A DNA stretch of 64,000 nucleotides from Pectobacterium aroidearum (GTDB lineage: Bacteria > Pseudomonadota > Gammaproteobacteria > Enterobacterales > Enterobacteriaceae): contig NZ_CP166097.1 of assembly GCF_041228105.1 (NCBI RefSeq), positions 4,650,001 through 4,714,000 of the forward strand. Direction: 5' to 3'. The position numbers and the translations under genes were made by a program. Positions 16,130 to 39,139 of this stretch are shown in pieces; position 1 is the first letter of the stretch; each line of letters starts with the position of its first letter. Under the pieces are notes generated by a model, which was given only the letters and a program-made list of their open reading frames with translations, did no database searches and had not been told where the DNA came from.

Positions 16130-17251
16130 TTATTCGTCGAAGAACCAGTATCCCTGATTAACCAGCCCGGTTAACTCAGCCACAAACGCCGGATTTTCCA
16201 GCGCGTCACCCAGCTCTTTTTTACCGAGAACGGTATAGCGACATAACGCATCAGCCGCTTTCGGTTCGACCGTATCCAGCCGTTCACTGTTAATGAAGTA
16301 GCTACCACCCACTTCCAGCACCCGCAGCCCGCTCAGACGCGTCAACACGTCACCGTCCATCAGCGCCCCCACAATCTCCTCCTGCTCGTAAGGTGGCTCC
16401 GCTGGAGCGATATCCAGCTCATGGCGCGGCGTCGTCACAAAGCGACCGAACCACTGTTTCAGCGCTTCCGGCTGATTGATCACCTCGATCATCATCTCGC
16501 GCAGGCGGTCAAACTCATAGTCTTCAACCCGCCCCGGATGCTCCCGACAGGTCAAATCCGGGTCGCTATAATGCTCACCACCGAGATCGTTCTCCAGCAC
16601 GTAGTCAGCGAAGCTGCTGATTAAGTCTCTGCCGTTTGGCCCACGGAACCCCACGGAGTAGTTGAGTGCGGTTTCGTGAGTAAAGCCGTCGTGCGGGAAA
16701 CCTGGCGGAATATAGAGAATGTCACCCGGTTCAAGATCTTCATCAATAATCGGCGGGAAAGGATCGACATGCAGCAACGCAGGGTGCGGGCAGAACTGGC
16801 GCATCGGCAACTTGTCACCCACGCGCCAGCGGCGGCTACCCATTCCCTGAATGATAAAGACATCGTACTGATCGATATGCGGGCCAACGCCGCCGCCCGG
16901 AACGGAAAAGGAGATCATCAGATCGTCCAAACGCCAGTCCGGCAACACACGGAACGGACGCACGAGTTCAGCAGACGGCGCATGCCAGTGATTCACCGCC
17001 TGAGCCAGCAGCGACCAACCGGTTTCACCCAGATTATCAAAATGCTCAAACGGCCCATTGCTAGCTTGCCACTGGCCATTTTTATGGCTGACCAGACGGC
17101 TGTCGACTTCCGCCTCCATCGCCAGACCCGCCAGCTCATCCGGCGTAATTGGGTCAACAAAATTCGGGAAAGCGTTCTTCAATACAACAGGTTGTTTTTG
17201 CCAGTATTTTTCTAAGAATTCGGGCCAGTTAAGGTTAAGTTGATAAGCCAT
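16130..17251 (-). CDS. roxA: ribosomal protein uL16 arginine 3-hydroxylase
   Basis: RoxA (YcfD) is an Fe(II)/2-oxoglutarate JmjC-type oxygenase that hydroxylates an arginine of ribosomal protein L16. The 373-residue protein equals the E. coli length and aligns throughout. The iron ligands are His125 and Asp127 (GPHIDQYD) and His187 (PPGFPHDGF). The C-terminal winged-helix region ends NQGYWFFDE. The start at 17251 (MAYQLNLNWPEFLEKYW) follows the family; the frame is open 23 codons upstream without similarity. Confidence 0.95.
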   Translation of the reverse strand: MAYQLNLNWPEFLEKYWQKQPVVLKNAFPNFVDPITPDELAGLAMEAEVDSRLVSHKNGQWQASNGPFEHFDNLGETGWSLLAQAVNHWHAPSAELVRPFRVLPDWRLDDLMISFSVPGGGVGPHIDQYDVFIIQGMGSRRWRVGDKLPMRQFCPHPALLHVDPFPPIIDEDLEPGDILYIPPGFPHDGFTHETALNYSVGFRGPNGRDLISSFADYVLENDLGGEHYSDPDLTCREHPGRVEDYEFDRLREMMIEVINQPEALKQWFGRFVTTPRHELDIAPAEPPYEQEEIVGALMDGDVLTRLSGLRVLEVGGSYFINSERLDTVEPKAADALCRYTVLGKKELGDALENPAFVAELTGLVNQGYWFFDE

Positions 17252-17341
17252 GCGTTGACACCAGTGAGAAGAGAAACGGGCCTGATTATAAAGAAGGTGA
17301 TGCCAGCGCAACTTTGTCATTGGTCAATGGGCGGATAACTA

Positions 17342-17770
17342 TCATGCAGACTGTATATTTTGCTTTATGAGATAGTGCCTAAACATGCCTTCTTCAGGAA
17401 AATCGGGTAAAGACATGTGCAGTTGATAACCTTGCTTTTCATAGAAAGGAAGTGCCTGAAAAATAAAGGTATCCACAAGCGCATGACGACACCCAAGACG
17501 CATCGCCTCCTGTTCCGCTTCCTTCACCAACGCGCTGCCGAGTTTCAGACCTCTGGATTCTTCACTCACCCACAAATAATCAATACACAACCATAAGCCT
17601 TTACGTGTAGCGATCAGCCCGCCCGTCATCACTCCGACGCTATTGCGGTGAAAAATACCCAATTGCCCAAAAGAGGCTGGATTAATAAACCGATGATTGT
17701 AACTTCGCAGGCCCGCAAAAAGTGCTTCCCGATCGTTATCGGTAATGTCGTGCGTCACGATTAATTCCAC
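17342..17770 (-). CDS. GNAT-family N-acetyltransferase
   Basis: A 142-residue single-domain acetyltransferase. The acetyl-CoA pyrophosphate loop is visible as [16 protein letters not shown], preceded by the beta strand [11 protein letters not shown], and [11 protein letters not shown] is the typical C-terminal helix/strand. The acceptor substrate is unknown. It stands alone between roxA and the tRNA-distal end of the leuX island, on the chromosomal side of the attachment repeat. About 200 bases upstream of it hold nothing recognisable before the att repeat. Confidence 0.88.
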
Positions 17771-17980
17771 TAGATCCTCCTCGGTTTCTGTTTATTAAAA
17801 ATGCATGACTTGTATGAATAACGCGTAGACGAAATCTGGTTTCAGCATAAATACAATCCGCCTTTCGGTACACGCTCTTTACATGGTGATTGTGCTTCTT
17901 TGTGGTTAAGAAAGGCTGGATAGTTTAGGGGGGTTAAGGGAAAAGAGGCTAAGGAAGAAGGTATAGCTGTCTGAATTTTT

Positions 17981-18042
17981 GACATAAAAAAAGCCACCCT
18001 GAGGTGACTTGATTTTCATACGATGGTCGAAGGCCGGACTCG
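17981..18042. repeat. tRNA-distal attachment repeat of the leuX island
   Basis: The stretch repeats 28607-28670 with two substitutions and a 2-base deletion. It contains the rho-independent hairpin that follows the tRNA (AAGCCACC...GGTGACTT) and the 3' 20 bases or so of the tRNA-Leu gene (CGAAGGCCGGACTCG). The tRNA similarity stops where the full gene would continue, as expected for the far att site of a tRNA-integrated element. Confidence 0.88.
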
Positions 18043-18264
18043 CAACTAAATTTAATACATTGATTAATAGCCACTTAAAATAAACAAATGGATTTAATGA
18101 CCACCATATTGACCCCTTTTATACAATAAGGGTTTTAAAACCATACTAATGATAGAAATAATAAATGAGCTATTTTTCCACATAAAATACTTGAATAACA
18201 CTGCCATTTAATTATTTAATATTGTCTATAAAATAAAAACCATTTAGCTATAATTAAAAAATCA
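18043..18264. other. AT-rich non-coding end of the island
   Basis: About 220 bases of very AT-rich DNA between the att repeat and the stop of the methyltransferase gene. No open frame, promoter or hairpin with a T-run stands out. Confidence 0.5.
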
Positions 18265-19134
18265 CTAAGATAACTTGATAATTTTATCACCTATGAGGTT
18301 CTCAGGGATATTGATATCATTGCAAACAATTAACAACTCAGTACCGATACGCTTCTTTGCGGCACTATAATTCAAATAGAATTCATACATATTATTTATT
18401 TTATAAATTTCTTTTATTTTTAATGCATTATCATAAGTTAATATCCAAGGAACTCTAATAGATGAGATAACTTTAGATAAAGCGGCATGATCATTTTCAT
18501 TGTAAAAATTCGTATATAAACTAGCCCCCTTCTCAAAATATGGAGGATCTATATACATGAAAAAATCATTTCCGCTGCGATCATCTATTTTTTTTATAAA
18601 ATCTACTGCATCCTCATTATAAATTTTTATAGAATCTTTATGTTTTTTTATTTTTACTATTTTTTTTATTAAATCATCTTTATTAAATCTACAGTTCAGC
18701 TTGTAATCACCTTCTTGTTTTAGCCCGCCAATTACACCAGCTTTTAAAATAATTCCAGATCTATTCGTCCTATTGAGGAAAAATGATGAGAATCCTAAAT
18801 CTAGTACATTAGCGCTATTCTTATTATTTTGAATATTTCTTTGTTTATACCATTCATCAATAGTTATCTCGGTATTTTCTATTCTATCTATAAACGCTTC
18901 TGTATCATTAAGAATAGAATGCCAGATAGCCCAAATTGAACGATCTAGATCATTCAAATGAATCTCTTCAGCAAACCCACCAAAAAGAAGAGCTAGCGCA
19001 AGCCCACCACCGCCAGCATATGGCTCGGCATATTTACATTTATTTAGTGAATTATTCTGGATTATATTTGAAACCATCGGATAGATGGCTGTTTTACCTC
19101 CAGGGTAGCGAAGAGGGGAATAAGTTACTGGCAT
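18265..19134 (-). CDS. D12-class DNA adenine (N6) methyltransferase, island cargo
   Basis: A 289-residue Dam-family enzyme that transfers methyl from SAM to adenine N6. Visible motifs are LRYPGGK (8-14, motif X), AEPYAGGGGLALALL (36-50, motif I, SAM binding), the FFLNRTNRSG segment (118-127) and the catalytic DPPY (196-199, motif IV). AT content and Lys/Ile/Asn richness set it apart from its neighbours. It is second in an operon, 65 bases after the ParB-like gene, with AGGTGAG before the ATG. Its target sequence is unknown. It could protect host DNA from the ParB-like partner, or act as an epigenetic or orphan methylase. Confidence 0.9.
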   Translation of the reverse strand: MPVTYSPLRYPGGKTAIYPMVSNIIQNNSLNKCKYAEPYAGGGGLALALLFGGFAEEIHLNDLDRSIWAIWHSILNDTEAFIDRIENTEITIDEWYKQRNIQNNKNSANVLDLGFSSFFLNRTNRSGIILKAGVIGGLKQEGDYKLNCRFNKDDLIKKIVKIKKHKDSIKIYNEDAVDFIKKIDDRSGNDFFMYIDPPYFEKGASLYTNFYNENDHAALSKVISSIRVPWILTYDNALKIKEIYKINNMYEFYLNYSAAKKRIGTELLIVCNDINIPENLIGDKIIKLS

Positions 19135-19199
19135 AGCTCACCTAAAAATAACATGTACTTTTTGTATTATACAATATTATTCGTAATAAAAACCACTAT

Positions 19200-20621
19200 T
19201 TATATATTCTTTGGCTTAGATTGATGTTCAACACAAATTGTAACTAATGGTTTTGCAATTAACCAAACTGATTTTAGCATATCCCTATCTGGTAGGGTAT
19301 ATTCACCATGCGCATAACGATTCAATGAGTCTAAAGAATTCCAGTTAGCACTATCTTTAGATATAAATCTTGTTAAGTCGGCCAGATAAGCCTTATTAGT
19401 AAACCATACATCTCTCTTCACGAGAGCATTAATGTTATCAGAAAGATTTTTAACTCTTCCATTACCGTTCAGACACTGATCTTTTTTCCCATGAATTTCA
19501 AAAATTCTTACTACTGATATTTCAACAATTGAACGTAACAATAAAGCAGCCGAATTTTTATACGTATCAATAAGCATGCCTTGTGCTTCTTGAATCAATA
19601 TATCTAACTTATCGCTTCCAGTAATATAATTCACTCCCTTGGGAATTAAGGTTTCCTTAGGTTTTCTTCGAGGTTTACTAATCTCAACATCATCCGATGA
19701 GACCTTCGTATTACTATTATCTGGAGTAAAATCCACACTTCCATCATGTATTCCTACAGGTATCTTCTCCATCTCGCTTTCAATATAAGAATCTATTTGC
19801 TTACTTGTATTTAACTTACGAGAATCAATTTTCTTTGTAACAATATCAATTACAAACTGTCTCAGCAATGCGTTGAAATACGATTTAGAAGTATCTGTTC
19901 TTAATCTATTTTCTTCGATTCTAAAACCTGTTTTTTCTTTAAATATTTTTGAATTAACCAACCTAGATATAGTACTAATATTAAATTTTGACATTAACGC
20001 TTTATCTTCAATATCAGTAGGTAACTCTAGCTCTGTAAAATATCTCTCTAAAAGGTACTCTTGGACCGAATCTTGTATTTCTATAACTTTAACATTAAAT
20101 CTTTCTGCAATATCCTGAATTGACTCACCACTGTCAATACCAATACTAGCAATAAATTTATTTTTTTGCTGTCTACTCCACTGAAGCTTTCCTTCTGCAT
20201 GTAATTCAAAAAGAACATTTTCAACGGCTCTTCTTGATGGAGCAACAAATACATCTATTTTTTCTATCAAATCGGAGCCTAGACGATTTTTATATAATTC
20301 GATTTTTCGTCGTTTAGCTGGTGAAGGAACTAATTCTGGATCAATCAAACATTTCAGCGCAGATACTCGGCGGTTTCCTTCTACCACTACGTAGTTTTCA
20401 CCCTCTTTAACTACATATATAGGATCGTGTGATATAAACCCCTTTTCTACAATTTTATGTGCAAGCCTTTCAATTCGTTCATTTTGGAATAAATAATTTA
20501 GTATATCTTTTGTTGTTCTAATTGTAATGTAACTTGGAATTCTTGGATTTTCTTTGTCAAGTCGTAAATTTGATACAGATAACGACAATCGTGGCCAAGA
20601 ACTATAATCTATTCTACTCAT
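19200..20621 (-). CDS. ParB/Srx-like protein with unknown C-terminal domain, island cargo
   Basis: A 473-residue protein. Residues about 15-120 are a ParB/sulfiredoxin-like domain: SVSNLRLDKENPRIP, then YVVVEGNRRVSALKCL with the EGNRR nucleotide-binding motif (81-85). A helical region (QWSRQQKNKFIASIGIDSGESIQDIAERF) resembles the ParB helix-turn-helix. After a polar linker (about 320-345, KPRRKPKE) comes a helical C-terminal domain ending in SLNRYAHGEYTLP (Arg435, His438), which loosely recalls HEPN/DUF4145-type domains. The start at 20621 has GGGAG upstream. It is upstream of and co-oriented with the methyltransferase. ParB/Srx domains act as CTPases or nucleases; which applies here is not known. 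Confidence 0.75.
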   Translation of the reverse strand: MSRIDYSSWPRLSLSVSNLRLDKENPRIPSYITIRTTKDILNYLFQNERIERLAHKIVEKGFISHDPIYVVKEGENYVVVEGNRRVSALKCLIDPELVPSPAKRRKIELYKNRLGSDLIEKIDVFVAPSRRAVENVLFELHAEGKLQWSRQQKNKFIASIGIDSGESIQDIAERFNVKVIEIQDSVQEYLLERYFTELELPTDIEDKALMSKFNISTISRLVNSKIFKEKTGFRIEENRLRTDTSKSYFNALLRQFVIDIVTKKIDSRKLNTSKQIDSYIESEMEKIPVGIHDGSVDFTPDNSNTKVSSDDVEISKPRRKPKETLIPKGVNYITGSDKLDILIQEAQGMLIDTYKNSAALLLRSIVEISVVRIFEIHGKKDQCLNGNGRVKNLSDNINALVKRDVWFTNKAYLADLTRFISKDSANWNSLDSLNRYAHGEYTLPDRDMLKSVWLIAKPLVTICVEHQSKPKNI

Positions 20622-20740
20622 AAAACTCCCTATTTTGTTTATAATTAGCAAGATCAGTATAATTCATTTTTGACACCAATATGATACTACCAAAGCTGTA
20701 TATAGCTTAAAAGCCAGCATGGCAGGATAATTAAAAAACA

Positions 20741-21064
20741 TCAAACCAATACCTTCAACCCATGTTTCTGCACCACGGTAAGCAATTTCAGCGACAACCC
20801 ACTAGGGCGTTTTACGCCGCTTTCCCATTTCTGCACCGTTGAAACACTAGTGTTCAGGTAGCTTGCGAAAACAGGCTGGCTAACTTTCAGCTTTTCACGC
20901 AACGCTTTGATCTCAATAGGCTGAAGATCGTCCACGCTGTTGAGGCACGCTTTGTCAAAGTTACGCATGGTTTCCTGTGGAATAGCGTCGACGCTGAATA
21001 ATCCAGAAGCCGCGCTATGGATAGCCTCAAATGCAGGACTCTTAAATTTACTTTTTGCGGTCAT
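20741..21064 (-). CDS. HigA/NadS-type antitoxin with HTH
   Basis: A 107-residue XRE-family DNA-binding antitoxin. The helix-turn-helix spans about residues 55-90 (ALREKLKVSQPVFASYLNTSVSTVQKWESGVKRPSG). The family-typical lead-in NFDKACL is present. It starts 17 bases inside the end of the toxin gene, so the pair is toxin-first as in higBA. It should neutralise the toxin by binding and repress their common promoter upstream of 21407. Confidence 0.88.
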   Translation of the reverse strand: MTAKSKFKSPAFEAIHSAASGLFSVDAIPQETMRNFDKACLNSVDDLQPIEIKALREKLKVSQPVFASYLNTSVSTVQKWESGVKRPSGLSLKLLTVVQKHGLKVLV

Positions 21065-21407
21065 GACTAATCTCCACCAGTTCTTTACTCTTAATCAGTG
21101 CCGTAATCTTTTCATCGGCAAGGGTTGCGTAGTGCTTCGCCAACTCGCGGAATCCGGCCAGTTCACGATTATCGATATTCGCCATATCCTGCTTGGCATA
21201 CAGGAACGTGTAAAACCAGTGCTGTCCACCTTTCGCCAGTATGATGGCGCGATCGCGATTCTGGTTCAGCCGCTTCTTATAAACGCCGCCGCCGAGATCG
21301 TCGGCTTTCCCTTGCATCACTGCCTCAATAGCCTCACATAACTCACTATCCTTGATGGCGTGGGATTTAGCCGCTTTAGTGAACCATTTGGTTTTGAATA
21401 CACGCAT
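21048..21407 (-). CDS. RelE/HigB-like toxin
   Basis: A 119-residue member of the RelE-like family often annotated as type II toxin (YKKRLNQNRDRAIILAKGGQHWFYTFLYAKQD). Basic residues and the Tyr/Phe-rich strand fit the ribosome-dependent mRNA endonuclease fold. It is followed with overlap by the antitoxin gene. The pair lies between the AT-rich cargo and the non-coding hairpin region and may stabilise the island. Confidence 0.87.
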   Translation of the reverse strand: MRVFKTKWFTKAAKSHAIKDSELCEAIEAVMQGKADDLGGGVYKKRLNQNRDRAIILAKGGQHWFYTFLYAKQDMANIDNRELAGFRELAKHYATLADEKITALIKSKELVEISHDRKK

Positions 21408-22406
21408 CAGGTCGACATCCTGTAACCTTAACTATAGCACTTGGTGCTAGATTACTCGCTTTTCAGGCAGAGTCAAAGCGCTTGAAGTCTGCAAACCTTT
21501 GTCGTATTTTTGACCGTGAAACCCTGCTGTCGATGACAGCCACCAATGTTTCCAGTATCGGGATGATATGAGTGACCTGTGAGAAGCGCCTTCGGGTGGT
21601 CACACTGCCAAAGTCATAAGGAATGGAGCGTGGTCTGAGACTGACGCCTTCGGGCGACCACACGATACCCTTCTGTAACCTGAAAAGAAGGGAGCGCGAT
21701 TAAAAGCGTGGTAAATCTGCTTAACTTCTGAAAGCAGATGTCGTCAGAGCCGCTATGAGCATGACGATGAAGCTCACTTTTACTTCAAGCCCAACATTGC
21801 TTTGGGCTTCACTATACCCAGCCAGAGAGCGGCTTCCATACCTTAGGAGACTGGCCGTAGCTGCAACGTTTATCGTTGTGGTGATTTCACTTCATAGGCG
21901 GCTTAAACAGCGCTTATCCTCGTAAGTTCGCGTTATCACGCGACTTCGATTTTACTCGTCTCAATGATTTGCGTCTGCGCGTGTGAACGTGCTGGCTGCG
22001 CGTTGCTATGCCGTCAGGCATCTGCTACGCGACTGCCGGCAACGTCTGCACCGGCGTCACTTTTTCCGTGTCAACGGATGAAAGTGACGCCGCAGCCGAA
22101 GCCCCCATCAGCCCCTGAGACATGCACCTCACCCACAGCGTCATGAATCTGACACACCCGTTTGTGCCGGACTGATCGCTTTTTTTACAGGAGATTGAAC
22201 CGATACCGAGGCAGGCCTAACCGCCTGAGAGGAAATCCTGCAACCGCAGGCGGTCGCACCGAGTGCGTCACCGACACCTCCCAAGACCTCAACTGCTGTC
22301 CGCTCTGGCGCACAGGTATCGTTCAAGGCAGGTCAATTGCGATTGTTTCTGCCCTTTCCCATGCGCCAGAGAAAAGCATCCAGTTGAATTATGAGAGGTA
22401 AGTTGC
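21408..22406. other. 1 kb hairpin-rich non-coding region of the island
   Basis: No convincing gene. It is full of structure. The strongest hairpin is at 22053-22091, with GGCGTCACTTT pairing to AAAGTGACGCC plus CCGT/ACGG around a GTCA loop. Another at 21999-22031 also has a GTCA loop (CGCG, ATGCC/GGCAT, CGCG). Others pair CCCTTC/GAAGGG (21668-21693), ATCTGCTT with AAAGCAGAT (near 21715), and AAGCCCAA/TTTGGGCTT (near 21790). A 19-base motif beginning CGCCTTCGGG occurs twice (21587 and 21645). This suggests a long structured RNA or a recombination or transfer site; I do not recognise a named family. Confidence 0.5.
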
Positions 22407-23488: not shown

Positions 23489-24021
23489 TGCATTGTTATT
23501 TTTTTCTGGCGGGCAATTTACGATATACTGCTGATGCTGCGGCAAAATCCGTAGCCGGAATTGGCGTTCCGACATTTACCACGTTGCCTAAAAGACACGG
23601 ATTTATTACGTGTCTTTTATTAGGCGATGCCTGCGCATACCTGTCAATGGTGGCTCAGGCGGGGGCTCCGCAAGGAGCGCCGGGCTACGTGGTAACCGGT
23701 TACGCCAACCCCGTCTGGGCTACCACCATCGAGGTTGGCGTCTCAGGTGGTAGTGATACCCTGCTTACCACGGAGGCTGCCTTATGGCTACGATCCTTCC
23801 CTTTCTCTACCCGCAATCTTTCTTTTTTTCTGCGGGGGTACATCATGTATGACCCCACTCCCCTGACGTTAGAAGAACTCGTCGATCACTGTCGGGCGCT
23901 GGCCTACGCCATCATTGAACTCGACAACGCACTCGCGAAAGAGCTGCTGATCTTTATCCTGTGGGAACGTCTGAACCAGTTGAATGACGCACTGCAAGCG
24001 GAGGTGGCTGACGATGAGTAA
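23485..24021 (+). CDS. ash: Ash-family protein, in frame with a downstream small gene
   Basis: A 178-residue frame. Residues about 18-85 carry the Ash signature: AAAKSVAGIGVP, then MVAQAGAPQGAP and YANPVWATT, as in P4-family Ash/Icd-like proteins, which sit over the antisense immunity RNA. From residue 121 (MYDPTPLTLEELVDHC) the sequence changes to a compact acidic helical protein that probably has its own start at 23845. The frame may therefore be two cistrons without a stop between them, or a natural fusion. It overlaps the primase start by 8 bases. The exact role of Ash is unclear. Confidence 0.65.
   Translation: MMHCYFFLAGNLRYTADAAAKSVAGIGVPTFTTLPKRHGFITCLLLGDACAYLSMVAQAGAPQGAPGYVVTGYANPVWATTIEVGVSGGSDTLLTTEAALWLRSFPFSTRNLSFFLRGYIMYDPTPLTLEELVDHCRALAYAIIELDNALAKELLIFILWERLNQLNDALQAEVADDE
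23538..23575 (+). ncRNA. P4 CI / P1 C4-like antisense immunity RNA, island copy
   Basis: GCGGCAAAATCCGTAGCC is followed by a hairpin CGGAA-TTGGCG-TTCCG, within the start of ash. CGTAGCC (23550-23556) is complementary to GGCTACG at 23693-23699 and again at 23786-23792, the arrangement by which P4 CI RNA silences its own operon through premature termination. A TATACT element ends about 7 bases upstream. RNA identity is inferred from comparison with the copy at 5780 and from P4/P1 biology. Confidence 0.55.
23845..24021 (+). CDS. possible separate 58-residue gene inside the ash frame
   Basis: An ATG at 23845 is preceded by GCGGGGG at suitable spacing and begins MYDPTPLTLEELVDHCRALA, a self-contained acidic helical polypeptide. 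It ends at the same stop as the ash frame and overlaps the primase ATG (ATGAGTAA). P4-like islands usually carry such a small gene just before the primase gene. The function is unknown. Confidence 0.4.
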   Translation: MYDPTPLTLEELVDHCRALAYAIIELDNALAKELLIFILWERLNQLNDALQAEVADDE

Positions 24022-26050
24022 GTTCGTTTCAGACATTACCGCACAGTCGCGCCACCGCTGGCGTGCCATTCTGTCCGCACTGGCTATTCCGGTGCCTTCT
24101 GGCGGTAAACATGGCGCTTGTCCTGCCTGCGGTGGCAAAGATCGCTTCCGCTTTGACGACAAAGAAGGACGGGGAACGTGGTTTTGCAATCAGTGCGGTC
24201 ATGGCGATGGCCTTGATCTGGTCGCACGGGTGAAAAACTGCGACCTGTCAGACGCCGCAAAACAGGTGGCCGCGCTGACGATCCCCGCCTCAACCGCGCC
24301 AGCCAGGGAAAAAGCTGCTGAGCGCCCGCCGCTGGCCGATAAAATCAAGCAGATGCTGACCCATTCAAGGAACGGCGAGAGCGCCTACCTGAAAGCAAAA
24401 GGATTCTCTATCGTCCATGCCCGCCTGACTGCACAGCAAAAAATGCGCATCGGCGGCGTGCTGTTTGATGAGGGAAGCCTGCTGCTGAAATTGCATCGCG
24501 TTTCCGGTGAACTGATCGGCGCACAGTTGATCAACAACGACGGAGAAAAACGCCTGCTGCCGGGCTCACAGTTGAAAGGCGCTTTCATCGCCGTGCATTA
24601 CCCGAAAGAGCCGGACACCATCGTGATCACTGAAGGATACGCCACCGGCCTGACCATCAGCCAGATCACCACGGCGGCAGTGGTTGCGGCAGTGTCGGCC
24701 AATAACCTAATGAATGTTGCACAAGCCCTGCGTGGCTGGTATCCCAATGCCACTATCATTCTGGCAGGCGATCATGACCTGCATGCCGATGGCTCAACCA
24801 ATATCGGTAAAGAGCAGGCGGAAAAAGCCGCGCTCGCGGTGGACGGATGGGTGTCGTTACCGCCCACCACAACGCTCTGTGACTGGGATGATTACCGCCA
24901 GCAATATGGGCTTGAGGCCACTAAATCTGCCTTCAATAAACAACGCTATCAGCCTGACACGATGTATACGCCTTTAGTGCGCACCGATTCTGCTACACCG
25001 GCCTTCAACACCGCATTACCCCTGCGCAAAGGCTCTGACGGTTTTGATACGCGGCAGGACTACCTGATTAAAGGCTATCTGCCGAGTTCCTCCGTTGCCA
25101 GCGCTTACGGTGCCAGCGGCTCGTATAAATCTTTTCTGGCGGTATCGTGGGGATGCCACATCGCCACTGGCAAGCCGTGGGCAGGCAAGCCGGTGACACA
25201 AGGGGCGGTGATTTATGTCGTCGGCGAAGGCGGGATCGGCGTTCCCCGCCGTATCCGGGCATGGGAGCAGACGCTTAACGGCGGTAGCCCGATTGATGCG
25301 CTGTATCGTGTCGATTGCCCGATTTTTCCGGCCAGCCCGGAGAGCGTGCAGCAGGTGATACGTGCCGCCCGCGATGTGAAAGTCGCCTCCGGTATGCCGG
25401 TTCGCCTGATTATTCTGGATACGCTCGCCCGCTGTTTTGGCGGTTCGGATGAGAATGCGGCTAAAGACATGGGCGCATTCATTCAGGGATGTGACGCGAT
25501 TAAGGCGGCGACACAGGCCACGGTGCTGATTATCCATCATTCAGGTAAAGATCAGGACAAAGGAGCACGCGGCTCCAGCGCCTTCCGTGCCGCGCTGGAC
25601 GTAGAATTTAACGTCAGGCGTGAAGGTGAAGGTGGCGCGTTGATCCTCAGTTGCACCAAGATGAAGGATGCGGAAGAACCGCCGCGTCGCGCCTATGACC
25701 TGAATGCCGTGGATCTGTACGTGGATGATGATGGCGATCAGATCACCTCACTGGTGCTGAACGATGAAGGCCGTGAAGTCAGGGAGGATGAGGCTGCCAG
25801 CGATCCCGATTTAGCCGGTATCCCACGGCTGACGGAAAATCATTTTGCTCTGTGGCAGGCTATTCGCTCTCGCACGGCCAACGGCGAAGGCTGCACCCGT
25901 TCATTGGTGCGTGACGACATGCGGGCAATGGGCTTTGATGTGAACAAGAAGTTCACCCGCTGGCTGGACAAGCTGGAAAAAGATGGCCTGATCGCCTTTG
26001 AGGGGGAACGGATTACGCCGTTATCGCAACGGAATAAGGTGGGGGATTAA
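24014..26050 (+). CDS. primase-helicase of the island (zinc, TOPRIM, RepA-like ATPase)
   Basis: A 678-residue replication protein. An N-terminal zinc finger (Cys36, Cys39, Cys58, Cys61 in ACPACGGKDRFRF and WFCNQCGHGDG) and a TOPRIM domain (VITEGYATGLT, GDHDLHADGS) make the primase. The second half is a RecA/RepA-type hexameric helicase with Walker A GASGSYKS (about 366-373), Walker B LIILDTLARC and LIIHHSGK. It differs from phage P4 alpha, whose helicase is SF3. A helix-turn-helix tail may read the iterons that start in its last codons. The start at 24014 overlaps the preceding gene. Confidence 0.92.
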   Translation: MSKFVSDITAQSRHRWRAILSALAIPVPSGGKHGACPACGGKDRFRFDDKEGRGTWFCNQCGHGDGLDLVARVKNCDLSDAAKQVAALTIPASTAPAREKAAERPPLADKIKQMLTHSRNGESAYLKAKGFSIVHARLTAQQKMRIGGVLFDEGSLLLKLHRVSGELIGAQLINNDGEKRLLPGSQLKGAFIAVHYPKEPDTIVITEGYATGLTISQITTAAVVAAVSANNLMNVAQALRGWYPNATIILAGDHDLHADGSTNIGKEQAEKAALAVDGWVSLPPTTTLCDWDDYRQQYGLEATKSAFNKQRYQPDTMYTPLVRTDSATPAFNTALPLRKGSDGFDTRQDYLIKGYLPSSSVASAYGASGSYKSFLAVSWGCHIATGKPWAGKPVTQGAVIYVVGEGGIGVPRRIRAWEQTLNGGSPIDALYRVDCPIFPASPESVQQVIRAARDVKVASGMPVRLIILDTLARCFGGSDENAAKDMGAFIQGCDAIKAATQATVLIIHHSGKDQDKGARGSSAFRAALDVEFNVRREGEGGALILSCTKMKDAEEPPRRAYDLNAVDLYVDDDGDQITSLVLNDEGREVREDEAASDPDLAGIPRLTENHFALWQAIRSRTANGEGCTRSLVRDDMRAMGFDVNKKFTRWLDKLEKDGLIAFEGERITPLSQRNKVGD

Positions 26051-27172: not shown

Positions 27173-28429
27173 TCAAGTATTTTTAAACTCATACGGCACC
27201 ACATACTCTTTCCGGTTCGCATCCAGATAATCTGCCCACCATTGCAGCATTAGCCTGCGCTCATCCAGATGCTCCGCTTTGTGGATGTAGGCAGCACGAA
27301 CGCCGTTGCGTTCCTGATGACTCATCTGGCGTTCTACCGCATCCCGCGACCATTGGCCGGATTCGACCAGTGCGCTACAGGCCATGGTGCGAAAGCCGTG
27401 TCCGCAAATCTCTGTAGTAGTGTCATAGCCCATGGTTCGTAATGCGTTGTTAACGGTGTTTTCACTCATCGGTTTGGTTGGTCGATGATCGCCGGGGAAA
27501 ATCAGTTCATGAGCGCCGCTGATGGCCTTAATCTCTTCCAGCAGCGCTAAAGCTTGTCGGGATAACGGCACCAGATGTTCAGAGCGCATCTTTGCGCCGC
27601 GCTGCGAATGCTTCACGCCGGGAATGGCTTCACGTTCAGCCGGTATCGTCCACATGGCACGTTTAAAATCGATTTCCGGCCAGCGGGCGAAACGTAGCTC
27701 ACTGGAGCGGATAAAAACGCACAGCGTGAGTTTTAACGCCAGCCTGGTTAACGCCCGCCCTTTGTGGCGTTCTATCCTTGCCAGAAAATCCGGCAGTTTA
27801 TTCAGCTTCAGGGCTGGCCGATGGGTAGCTTTTGGCGCGGCTATCGCGCCGGAGAGGTCTTGCGCGGGGTTGCGCTCTATCAGATCGTTCTGCACCGCAT
27901 AGCGCATGATATCGGTGACACGCTGGCGCAGCCGTGACGCCAAATCAAGATGACCGTTCTGTTCGACGACTTTCAGCGGCTCCAGCAGGTCTTTAGTTTT
28001 CAGGTCGGCAATATGGCGATGCCCGATAGCAGGCAGTAAATTTCGTTCCATATCGCGCCATACCCGTCCGGCGTGTGTTTCTGACCACCGGTTTTGGCTA
28101 ATGTTTCGGTGCCAGTCCTGCGCGACCTTCGCAAAAGTATTCAACGCCTCTTGCGCCTGCTCTTTTTCTTCTTCCCGCTTTTCCGTTGGGTGGATGCCCT
28201 CCAACAGCAGCAATCGCACCTCGTCACGCTTCTCTCTGGCCTTTGCCAGCGAGACTAGCGGATAGGCACCGAACGCAATCCGGCTCTCCTTACCTTCAAA
28301 GCGATATTTGAGATACCAGCGCTTAGAGCCGTTCGGACTCACTAAAAGATACAGGCCGTGCGCGTCCGCGAGCTTATAGGCTTTCTCGCGGGGCTTGGCG
28401 GTACGGGCAACAACGTCGGTCAGCGCCAT
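27173..28429 (-). CDS. int: P4-type tyrosine integrase of the leuX island
   Basis: A 418-residue site-specific recombinase. The N-terminal DUF4102 arm-binding domain (MALTDVVARTAKPREKAYKLADAHGLYLLVSP) is followed by the core-binding region and the catalytic domain with Arg in FIRSSELRFARW, HGFRTMACSALVE (His-x-x-Arg), SHQERNGVRAAYIH with the second His and the nucleophilic Tyr. Its gene lies 220 bases from the 3' end of tRNA-Leu, the standard P4 geometry. P4 itself uses the leuX site. Confidence 0.96.
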   Translation of the reverse strand: MALTDVVARTAKPREKAYKLADAHGLYLLVSPNGSKRWYLKYRFEGKESRIAFGAYPLVSLAKAREKRDEVRLLLLEGIHPTEKREEEKEQAQEALNTFAKVAQDWHRNISQNRWSETHAGRVWRDMERNLLPAIGHRHIADLKTKDLLEPLKVVEQNGHLDLASRLRQRVTDIMRYAVQNDLIERNPAQDLSGAIAAPKATHRPALKLNKLPDFLARIERHKGRALTRLALKLTLCVFIRSSELRFARWPEIDFKRAMWTIPAEREAIPGVKHSQRGAKMRSEHLVPLSRQALALLEEIKAISGAHELIFPGDHRPTKPMSENTVNNALRTMGYDTTTEICGHGFRTMACSALVESGQWSRDAVERQMSHQERNGVRAAYIHKAEHLDERRLMLQWWADYLDANRKEYVVPYEFKNT

Positions 28430-28606: not shown

Positions 28607-28670
28607 GACATAAAAAAAGCCACCCTGAGGTGACTTAATTTTCATACAATGGTGCCGAAGGCCGGACTCG
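28607..28670. repeat. tRNA-proximal attachment repeat
   Basis: 64 bases repeated at 17981-18042. It comprises the last 21 bases of the tRNA-Leu gene and 43 bases beyond, including the hairpin-plus-T-run that terminates the tRNA transcript on the minus strand. That the copy extends past the tRNA end means the island carries its own tRNA terminator. Confidence 0.88.
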
Positions 28671-28734
28671 AACCGGCACACCTTGCGGCGGTTGATTTTG
28701 AATCAACTGCGTCTACCGATTTCGCCACTTCGGC
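28650..28734 (-). tRNA. leuX: tRNA-Leu (anticodon CAA), leuX-type
   Basis: 85 nt including the encoded CCA. It is a class II tRNA with long variable arm: acceptor GCCGAAG/CTTCGGC, D-arm GGCGAAATCGGTAGACGC, anticodon stem GTTGA/TCAAC around TTCAAAA (anticodon CAA), variable arm CCGCCGCAAGGTG, and T-arm GCCGGTTCGAGTCCGGC. The closest match I know is E. coli leuX, the classic P4 integration target. The gene is intact, reconstituted by the island's end. Confidence 0.97.
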
Positions 28735-36649: not shown

Positions 36650-37526
36650 CCATCGGGTTAGCGATTACACCGATGATAATCGGCATTCCTTTAGTACTCA
36701 TGATTGATACATGCAAATCACCGTCTGTATTAATCTGAAATTTAGTCACTGCATTTTTATTGCTTAGGTAGTACGGCCACACCCCACCACCATTGTACTC
36801 TTTAATTTCATTCAAGTGCTGATCTGTAAAGTGGGCAGAAATCGTATATTCAACCTTTATATCGCTAACACAAATTAAACCTGTAACTATCTGATGTAAA
36901 CTACCTGTTATACCGAACATCGAGTCCCATGAGATCAAATCATCAGGTTGCCAAGGGGGGGTTTTATTAGGATTTTGGTAGGCCGTTTTCAATGCGATCC
37001 CCGTATACCAATCATCAGGCTGGGGAGTAAAGTGGAGCAAGTGTCCGAAACTCACTTTCACTGAAAGAGCAGATAAAGCAATAGCCGATGATAATCCAGC
37101 CATCGGATCAGAGTTATGCCATATGCCCCAGAAACTGCTAGAGGCGCTTACTGGTAATTCAAATTCAAAACTGATTTTTGGGGCACTACTTAATTGCTTT
37201 TCCATAGATCTATAGCCTTTTTCCCAAGCTGGTGGTTGCTCACCCCAGTTGGTAAGATTACGTTGAGCCGCGGCTATAGGATCAAGAATATTAGGGGATG
37301 CAACCAAAGCATTAACCAGAATGGAGTAATGTTCAAAGAAACTGCCTTGGTTATTGTATTGTATTACTCCAGAGGATGGTAATTGATCTAGCAATTCCCA
37401 AAGCGCATTATCATCAGGAGCAGGAGAAATTGCTCCCTGATATATCTTCACTGTATTGCTGGGTAAGCCAATAGCTTCTATCTGTCGCGCTATAAAATAC
37501 TGTTGAACATCGTCAAAATTACGCAT
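36627..37526 (-). CDS. insert protein B, unknown family, C-terminally cut by the junction
   Basis: A 299-residue protein of no family I recognise. It is a paralogue of the next upstream gene product: shared blocks include [12 protein letters not shown].....[14 protein letters not shown] and [12 protein letters not shown]. No signal peptide or membrane helix is seen. It ends ASWIGGQ with a stop codon supplied by kptA sequence at the duplication junction, whereas the paralogue runs about 16 residues further. The gene has therefore probably lost its natural end. It is 74 bases downstream of, and co-oriented with, the longer paralogue. Lower GC than flanking core genes suggests transfer. Confidence 0.72.
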
Positions 37527-37600
37527 AATTGATGATTATCCTCATATTTTAAATAGGGCACTTTGAACAAATAAGAGTACCCTATTCCTAAATACTGTAT

Positions 37601-38785
37601 TTAACCCCGCGGAATAAGGCGACGAAGCTCCAATTGAGATGCGTCTCTCAAATGACCAAGGTACTTATCAACTGGTTCGATAATTGCTCCAACGATAGTT
37701 GGCACATTTTTCTCGGTAGTAACCGTTACCATCAGACGCCCAGATGTATCGAAATTCACACTGGTTTCAGAGACATTTTCGGATGATTTATGATAAAACG
37801 GCCATAGACCAGAACGACTATTTTTAATAATTTCCTTCTGTTCGGTTGTAGAGAATGTCGCAGCAGTCGAATAAACTAACTTCATTTGGTTGGCAATTAA
37901 TAAAAGCGTAGTGAAACGCTGCATATCTCCGCTTGCCGAAAATGTATTTTTCCATGTTTTCAAGCCATTTGGGCTCCAAGGCGGAGTCCCTGCTTCACTG
38001 TATGCAATACCAAGAGTCGCAGAATTATACCAATCTCCTGGATTTGCAGAGAAAGGCAATAGATTTTTAAAACTTGCTTCAAGATGGACACTGCTGCTTG
38101 CGAATTTTTGGCTTATCTCAGTATTAGAGTAACTGTTTGACCATAATCCAAAAACCGCCGACTGTGCCCCACCGTTCCAGGTCTTTGTGTAGCTTGTATC
38201 TTTAATACTAAGATCAGTGGTAAATTCTCGACTCGGTGCCTTCTTCAGTTGTTTCATCATCGTGTTATAGTCAGGAAAAAAGTCTACTGACTTTCTGCCA
38301 ACAGGTTTATAGGGCAAAACATTATTTTGGCCTGCAAATATGGGATCAAGAAGCATGGCAGCATAAGCGGATGCTCCAGAGTTAGCATGACTGGAGCATT
38401 TATTAGTAAGGAATGCCCAATCACGGTATCCACGAGGCGTTGCTTCTGCATTACCATTCTCAACAGCATTGCTGAAAGCATCGAAACAGTACTCACCAAT
38501 TTCCTCCTTGAATTTATTAGGAGGACTCTGCAAGGAAGACATTATTGCAGAATAAGTGGAAAGAAACTGTGTACCTGATGCAAGCGTAGTGTTCCGTGTA
38601 AGAGAGCTTGTTGGTAATGTATTAAAATAACTCCAAAGAATTTTGTCATTATCATCTTCATCATCGCCGATGATCGGTGGTGATGGTTGCACAACTTGTG
38701 CAGGTTGATTCAGGTTATAGCCAAGACCTTGAATAAAAGCAGCAAAAAAAACTTTTTGCAGATCAGCAAACGTATCACTTGACAT
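37601..38785 (-). CDS. insert protein A, unknown family
   Basis: A 394-residue protein without recognised domains. The N terminus MSSDTFADLQKVFFAAFIQG is amphipathic, then a Pro/Asp-rich linker (QPSPPIIGDDEDDND) precedes a globular region. The last 150 residues match the neighbouring gene product (GDWYNSATLGIAYSEAGTPPWSP, SGLWPFYHK, NVPTIVGAIIEP). It is rich in Ser/Asn/Thr, with no signal peptide. The start is well supported by GGAG seven bases upstream. Pairing of two diverged paralogues suggests a two-component complex (for instance a binary effector or a structural pair), but this is conjecture. Confidence 0.75.
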   Translation of the reverse strand: MSSDTFADLQKVFFAAFIQGLGYNLNQPAQVVQPSPPIIGDDEDDNDKILWSYFNTLPTSSLTRNTTLASGTQFLSTYSAIMSSLQSPPNKFKEEIGEYCFDAFSNAVENGNAEATPRGYRDWAFLTNKCSSHANSGASAYAAMLLDPIFAGQNNVLPYKPVGRKSVDFFPDYNTMMKQLKKAPSREFTTDLSIKDTSYTKTWNGGAQSAVFGLWSNSYSNTEISQKFASSSVHLEASFKNLLPFSANPGDWYNSATLGIAYSEAGTPPWSPNGLKTWKNTFSASGDMQRFTTLLLIANQMKLVYSTAATFSTTEQKEIIKNSRSGLWPFYHKSSENVSETSVNFDTSGRLMVTVTTEKNVPTIVGAIIEPVDKYLGHLRDASQLELRRLIPRG

Positions 38786-39139
38786 GATTAATCTCCTAAT
38801 TGACAGTAATAGATACAGTTTTTTATGGCAGGTCTGATTTTATTAAAATAGCAATAAAACGATAGAATGCATTCTTGAATAATTCAATGTTGATATAGAG
38901 CAAAAAACGCATAATCATGATTTTTTTGATTTTATTTTAAAATAATAGAAAATAATTATATATTTAATTATTCTCAATCATATTAATGATCTTATTGCGG
39001 CATTCCCCTGTCTTTCTTTATAATTTAATTAGCAAGCATATAAACAATTCACTTTATTTATTTTATCAGTTATGAATTTCATTGATTTTATTATAATTAT
39101 CAGGGTGATATTTAACTGCTTATTTTCAGAAAAATGACT
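38786..39139. other. AT-rich upstream region of the insert genes
   Basis: About 350 bases, strongly AT-rich, with no coding frame. It must carry the promoter for the two insert genes on the minus strand. AT-rich foreign promoters of this kind are typical H-NS targets. No repeats or tRNA-like sequence are visible. Confidence 0.5.

Follow-up and report, generated by a model that had tools for sequence, protein, structure and literature searches.

The 64,000-nucleotide (nt) stretch of Pectobacterium aroidearum DNA that we analyzed, hereafter the window (contig NZ_CP166097.1, positions 4,650,001 to 4,714,000), contains two adjacent genes, termed A and B, that almost certainly represent the antiphage system PD-lambda-5, carried as cargo of a P4-type satellite at leuX. 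The two genes are arranged head to tail on the same strand, with 65 nt between them.

19200..20621, minus strand: gene A (PD-Lambda-5_A), a 473-amino-acid (aa) protein with ParB/Srx, helix-turn-helix (HTH) and HEPN-like parts (frame list, PADLOC, predicted model and fold matches)
18265..19134, minus strand: gene B (PD-Lambda-5_B), a 289-aa D12 class N6-adenine DNA methylase (frame list, Pfam, PADLOC)
18538-18549, minus strand: DPPY motif of B

Protein A matched the PADLOC model PDLC04017 (PD-Lambda-5_A) with an E-value of 1.4e-292 over residues 1-472 of 473, and protein B matched PDLC04018 (PD-Lambda-5_B) with an E-value of 2.8e-122 over nearly its full length. Gene order and strand are likewise equal to those of PD-lambda-5, the difference being that the window copy sits in a leuX P4-type satellite of Pectobacterium. 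For A, Pfam gave nothing beyond a weak ParB_N match (E 0.0082); for B, it gave MethyltransfD12 (E 1.2e-19). PD-lambda-5 was recovered by functional selection in E. coli, where it blocks phages; 9 of ten tested phages were blocked, T-even phages most strongly, the system was studied in a host deleted for the mrr region, and the authors classified it as 'RM+Abi' (Vassallo 2022, PMC9519451). This wording recurs in a passage of PMC10799925, and surveys (PMC12824646, PMC12629846) report PD-lambda-5 from islands and prophages of Vibrio and Pseudomonas. The choice of an mrr-deleted host would fit a foreign adenine mark in the DNA, a reason that is ours and is not stated by the authors. An assumption that the island's own host lacks Mrr proved wrong, as one Mrr_cat protein is encoded there. 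Phage protection has been published for the E. coli system and is predicted for the window pair. A preliminary description, made from the letters alone, had suggested that the island's cargo pair may act in defence as a two-gene system; this was correct, but the system had already been published as PD-lambda-5 (PADLOC; PMC9519451). In the passages that we read of open-licence PMC papers naming PD-lambda-5, we found no account of its mechanism, including how phage and self are told apart.

The anatomy of protein A bears directly on this question. Based on the predicted model, A looks like a ParB-type, clamp-like DNA sensor fused to a HEPN-like effector domain, with the following parts.

20184..20594, minus strand: ParB/Srx nucleotide-binding domain, A residues 10-146 (A-family alignment, predicted model, fold matches)
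20367-20381, minus strand: EGNRR (Box II), A residues 81-85 (A-family alignment)
19767..20183, minus strand: helical DNA-binding (HTH) part of the ParB/KorB fold, A residues 147-285
19215..19625, minus strand: HEPN-like domain, A residues 333-469 (predicted model, A-family alignment, fold matches)

The N-terminus yielded fold matches to KorB, Noc and ParB, including forms bound to cytidine triphosphate (CTP; Foldseek E 1.9e-6), and the NCBIfam model nucleoid_noc matched residues 45-92 (E 1.2e-4). Residues E81, G82, N83, R84 and R85 are kept in 56 of 56 A-family rows. According to the relevant part of PMC12704722, the Box II arginines of the ParB fold are required for nucleotide binding; the fold, these arginines and the HTH domain are all present in A. 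By eye, no canonical Box III (ENxxR) was seen in A, and nearby H141 and W148 are kept in 54 and 56 of the 56 rows, respectively. A PDB sequence search of A returned 5 rows at E up to 1, of which the ParB entry 4umk (E 0.0036) alone was taken as meaningful; the top row, 8vd6 (E 5.9e-6, A residues 156-203, no stretch passing by itself), was dropped as unexplained. Compared to the CTP-gated KorB/Noc/ParB clamps, A carries in our reading the HEPN-like domain instead of their C-terminal dimerisation domain, has no ParA partner gene adjoining it (by eye), and its nucleotide gating is predicted.

The C-terminal domain had been left unassigned in the preliminary description; structure prediction and fold matches now point to a HEPN-like domain. 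Its conserved residues are R363, E367, N434 and H438, with R363 invariant in helix 2 and H438, in the SLNRYAHG region, kept in 55 of 56 rows. DUF4145 was matched in 3 of the 56 A relatives. In contrast to DUF4145-like HEPN domains (PMC3710099), A does not have the arginine of Rx4-6H, the active-site motif of HEPN RNases (an R at -5 to -7 of H438 occurs in 2 of 55 rows), and shows the invariant helix-2 R363 instead; the pattern [NDH]x3H at H438 is present in 55 of 56 rows. The motifs singled out beforehand (EGNRR, SLNRYAHG with its H438 and, in B, DPPY, invariant in 40 of 40 B rows) were all found, and their conservation exceeds chance. In Vibrio phage ValB1MD-2 (L054 2443-4882), A lies in two overlapping frames of 252 and 265 aa, followed by B; the break, a split gene or a frameshift, separates the ParB/HTH part from the HEPN-like one.

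Identity, pairing, domain anatomy, conserved residues and exchangeable partners were observed here, and we infer which nucleotide gates A, a preference for unmarked DNA, RNA as the target and the order of events. Protein B would mark the host's own DNA by methylating an adenine target. Protein A, as a nucleotide-gated ParB-type DNA binder, would settle on DNA lacking this mark, for example a freshly injected phage genome, and its binding or clustering there would activate the HEPN-like C-terminal domain, which would then cut RNA and stop the infected cell, blocking phage spread. The only effector-like domain seen in A is HEPN-like, and such domains cut RNA in known relatives, so that A may exert its effect by damaging RNA and not by restricting DNA. 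Taken together, PD-lambda-5 identity plus mark-gated DNA sensing with a HEPN-like, RNA-cutting effector is our leading model, held tentatively at a little below an even chance, with direct restriction and a toxin-antitoxin arrangement as its main rivals.

In direct restriction, A itself would cut unmethylated DNA through its ParB-fold or HEPN-like domain, forming a compact restriction-modification system in which cells survive. We regard this as unlikely, albeit deserving of serious weight. As in Type II restriction-modification, an adenine methylase adjoins a partner gene, and B is also matched by the PADLOC MTase_II models. Moreover, sister ParB-module proteins are partnered by an Mrr_cat nuclease in two genomes (G137, 4.6e-5; G260, 3e-10) or by a ~330-aa protein whose invariant positions we read as nuclease-like, and ParB/Srx proteins are reported, in a passage of PMC12839542, to nick DNA. 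However, A differs from the partner gene of Type II systems in that no restriction endonuclease is recognised in it: Pfam, NCBIfam, PHROGs and fold searches gave no restriction-nuclease match, a missed fold being possible.

We surveyed the pairing of A and B in an order sample of 394 genomes, in which profile A1 matched 15 (E <= 1e-10) and profile A2 11 (E <= 1e-40), and in a phylum sample of 398 genomes with 21 A matches (E <= 1e-8). In the order sample, each of the 9 full-length A proteins had B next to it or nearby: in 7 genomes the two genes adjoin on one strand, in G293 they are convergent, and in G048 an AAA ATPase gene lies between them. Across the 33 distinct genomes combined, B accompanied 12 of 15 full-length A proteins (exceptions G971, G811 and G862) and occurred in 3 of the remaining 18 genomes, which mostly hold ParB-module proteins of other build. 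The 'full-length' cut, profile position 369, was set after the rows had been seen, rendering the Fisher p of 4e-4 post hoc, and the hypergeometric value for the pairing (9.6e-17) treats genomes as independent. Among close protein relatives of A (P0001-P0038), at least 14 of 38 apparently share their genome with a B relative, judged by equal length of the longest contig in a comparison with the best 120 B relatives. The A-B pairing is not chance. Correspondingly, the idea that both genes are functionally separate and adjacent here only is very improbable: of the 22 phage records with B, 18 lack A, as do all 5 of the E. coli contexts that were opened, yet A comes with B in the proportions given above, and the published system has both genes. 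Two observations had been named beforehand as speaking for chance neighbours. The first, an A that mostly goes without the methylase, is opposite to what we found; the second, a methylase found mostly as a solitary phage gene, is half true, as most phage records with B lack A and the opened E. coli contexts pair B with an ATPase-type partner.

The genomes with incomplete pairs bear on the second main rival, in which a toxic HEPN-like A would be restrained by B, through contact or methylated A sites, until a phage depleting or inhibiting B frees it. In G117, where B is absent, the N-terminal half of A carries another tail in place of its C-terminal part, and in G383, which holds the tenth B of the order sample, all that is left of A next to B is a C-terminal piece of ~100 aa; the HEPN toxins 8yuf, 6m6u and 8xdj are also among the fold matches of the C-terminus. 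Nevertheless, A occurs without B in the three exceptions listed above, and B relatives have unrelated partners in E. coli and in phages, so B is not a dedicated antidote. We consider this arrangement rather improbable. B-like genes with no A nearby were also seen: the B of G105, the eleventh genome, is more distant, and the 16 kb fetched there contain no A, and G038 has two more B-like matches with no A on their short contigs.

The other partners of B were most apparent in E. coli. By DNA similarity to the window pair, B-type methylases were found in 85 of 5,426 genomes, and queries with the L024, L027 and L054 pairs matched 102, 127 and 88 genomes; the best 20, 10, 8 and 8 of these 85, 102, 127 and 88 genomes all carried the methylase only, and the E. 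coli founder sequence of PD-lambda-5 was not recovered by these four distant searches. Neither the E. coli nor the plasmid collection yielded close DNA copies of A/B. In 2 of 2 E. coli contexts opened from the window-pair search, an AAA ATPase was the partner of B (the one scanned has 577 aa, AAA_15/AAA_21), and in three further contexts from related queries the partner was an AAA ATPase or a gene annotated as ATP-dependent nuclease. These E. coli gene pairs of a B-type methylase and an AAA/OLD-like ATPase (L051 2852-5564, L095 1991-4704, L097 1978-4627) lie in prophage-type and integrative and conjugative element contexts and perhaps constitute a separate defence pair. Against PD-Lambda-5_B, the scanned E. 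coli B reached 410 bits and thereby equalled the window B (406 bits), and therefore B alone cannot call PD-lambda-5. In phages, 22 records contain B and 4 of them, by accession, also A, two of these being the same phage. According to these data, B is a promiscuous marker gene, and A is mostly accompanied by B.

In far relatives, identity of A drops to 19-29%, B still retaining 36-49%. The A and B tree distances correlate across 28 pairs, with an r of 0.66 that none of 5000 permutations attained. Strict co-evolution was nevertheless rejected, as the correlation is weak within the 16 close pairs (r 0.35, 87/5000) and the 12 far pairs (r 0.42, 50/5000). In G345 (L021 8726-11038), A nests in a fully supported clade with the window A, and B groups with the B of G092. 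A single clade for the 16 close B proteins was rejected (p-AU 4.3e-5, for a group suggested by distances seen beforehand); in the corresponding test of the A tree, a position of G345 just outside the other 15 was compatible with the data (p 0.077). Judging from these trees, the methylase partner of G345 seems to have been exchanged, and such an exchange would be a natural experiment on what A reads, a sequence or the mere absence of a mark.

We also found the N-terminal module of A combined with other partners. Besides Mrr_cat, these include the ~330-aa protein, whose D, G, D, QxA, W and K positions are invariant across 6 aligned rows and which we ourselves read as nuclease-like; in the two rows scanned it was not recognised by Pfam and had no PADLOC match. 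A fused ATPase is present in G330 (Pfam) and G754 (ATPase-type NCBIfam matches) and, by length and look-alike, in G686, G712 and G707. The pair of ParB module and ~330-aa protein adjoins DndC, DndD and DndE in L028 (542, 498 and 88 bits), accompanies DptH in L029 (1205 bits; DndC-E there by look-alike) and lies beside a convergent B methylase in G887 and G823. As a gene arrangement, a ParB-module protein of ~360-400 aa followed by a ~330-366-aa protein was seen at L028 7095-9150, L029 7316-9419, L056 204-2301, L082 4843-6965, L083 5908-8080 and L080 6316-8497, the settings being Dnd loci, a P2-like phage and the neighbourhood of a B methylase. Whereas Dnd-locus, Mrr- and ATPase-partnered proteins share the N-terminal module with A, other partners replace the HEPN-like domain and another or no DNA mark is adjacent. 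Since a similar sensor-partner pair stands beside two chemically different DNA marks, the ParB module may answer to unmarked DNA; this is the best circumstantial evidence for such a role. Found in phosphorothioation loci as well, the module may sense unmarked DNA in general.

A more detailed version of the leading model, in which A is a KorB-like nucleotide-gated sliding clamp, methylation by B blocks the site where it loads, and the HEPN-like domains brought together by clamps gathering on unmarked phage DNA cut RNA via a relocated active site (R363/E367 with N434/H438) replacing Rx4-6H, is possible, though doubtful as a whole. If true, a partition-type clamp that kills through RNA would serve PD-lambda-5 as the restriction arm of a restriction-modification system, and PD-lambda-5 would be one of a wider set of ParB sensors plugging in different marks (N6-methyladenine, phosphorothioate) and effectors (HEPN, Mrr, ATPase). 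The anatomy of the locus narrows the phage/self question to the Box II arginines as putative nucleotide gate, H438/R363 as putative effector and DPPY as mark.

Finally, we characterized the setting of the pair, for which the preliminary description had named two co-oriented AT-rich genes at the variable end of a leuX-integrated P4-like island. The frames were confirmed, as was the composition, with GC at 0.28-0.37 across 18-21 kb vs ~0.55 on either side. Translation of A would start at the ATG at 20621 (with the TTG at 20651 as start, A would be 10 aa longer), and Shine-Dalgarno-like sequences were seen by eye ahead of A (AGGGAG-TTTT-ATG) and B (AGGTGA). No promoter signal was found at the locus (12 sites vs 15.2 expected). 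The island of ~10.6 kb is delimited and populated as follows, with the A/B pair at its distal att end, between the RelE/HTH genes and the att repeat.

17981..18042, no strand: distal att repeat (direct-repeat search, families D1 and D5)
17991-18010, minus strand: terminator-like stem inside the distal att repeat
20741-21064, minus strand: HTH gene, with the RelE-like gene the cargo-slot border kept in relatives
21048-21407, minus strand: RelE-family toxin-like gene, cargo-slot border kept in relatives
23984..26050, plus strand: primase-helicase of the satellite (frame list, Pfam)
27173..28429, minus strand: tyrosine integrase of the island (frame list, Pfam)
28607..28670, no strand: proximal att repeat, overlapping the 3' end of the tRNA gene (direct-repeat search, families D1 and D5)
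28650..28734, minus strand: tRNA-Leu(CAA), leuX-type integration site (tRNA scan)

P4-like satellites exploit their helper through the genes psu, sid and delta. The island has the P4-like features of an integrase at a tRNA site, att repeats, a primase-helicase and C4 RNA, and it also encodes a second integrase-like gene and Ash. The label 'P4-like' is fair because of its integrase genes, Ash, primase-helicase and the C4, isrK, STAXI and EFASI RNAs, all four of which are above Rfam gathering scores. The STAXI/EFASI matches (21525-21718 and 22195-22325) fall in the non-coding DNA, ~1 kb long, that separates the RelE gene from the second integrase-like gene.

The end beyond the RelE/HTH genes is indeed variable, its gene content differing between relatives. 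Twelve loci with the second integrase-like gene were fetched and 10 chosen cargo proteins from 6 loci were scanned, and PADLOC recognised cargo in 5 of these 6: Nsn (L040), AbiU-like (L042), SIR2-HerA (L044) and HEC-01 (L047, L048). The single cargo protein scanned from L043 had no PADLOC match at E <= 1e-10. The slot is thus often a defence slot, as the expectation of antiphage cargo had implied. Of two same-genus genomes, G126 has a single copy of the att sequence, located at the tRNA (apparently an empty site), and G198 has two copies ~20.4 kb apart (a different island). P. aroidearum L6 carries A at 100% identity, with a look-alike island and chromosomal neighbours; an additional 436-aa frame, which we take to be transposase-like, lies there between B and the chromosomal side (L002 8713-10023) and is not in the window. 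The flank past the distal att (17342-17770, 16130-17320) had no match near the tRNA site in two same-genus genomes, and within 17300-18060 the att part alone was matched. A further AT-rich stretch of the window lies at 37000-39000 (GC 0.37-0.41).
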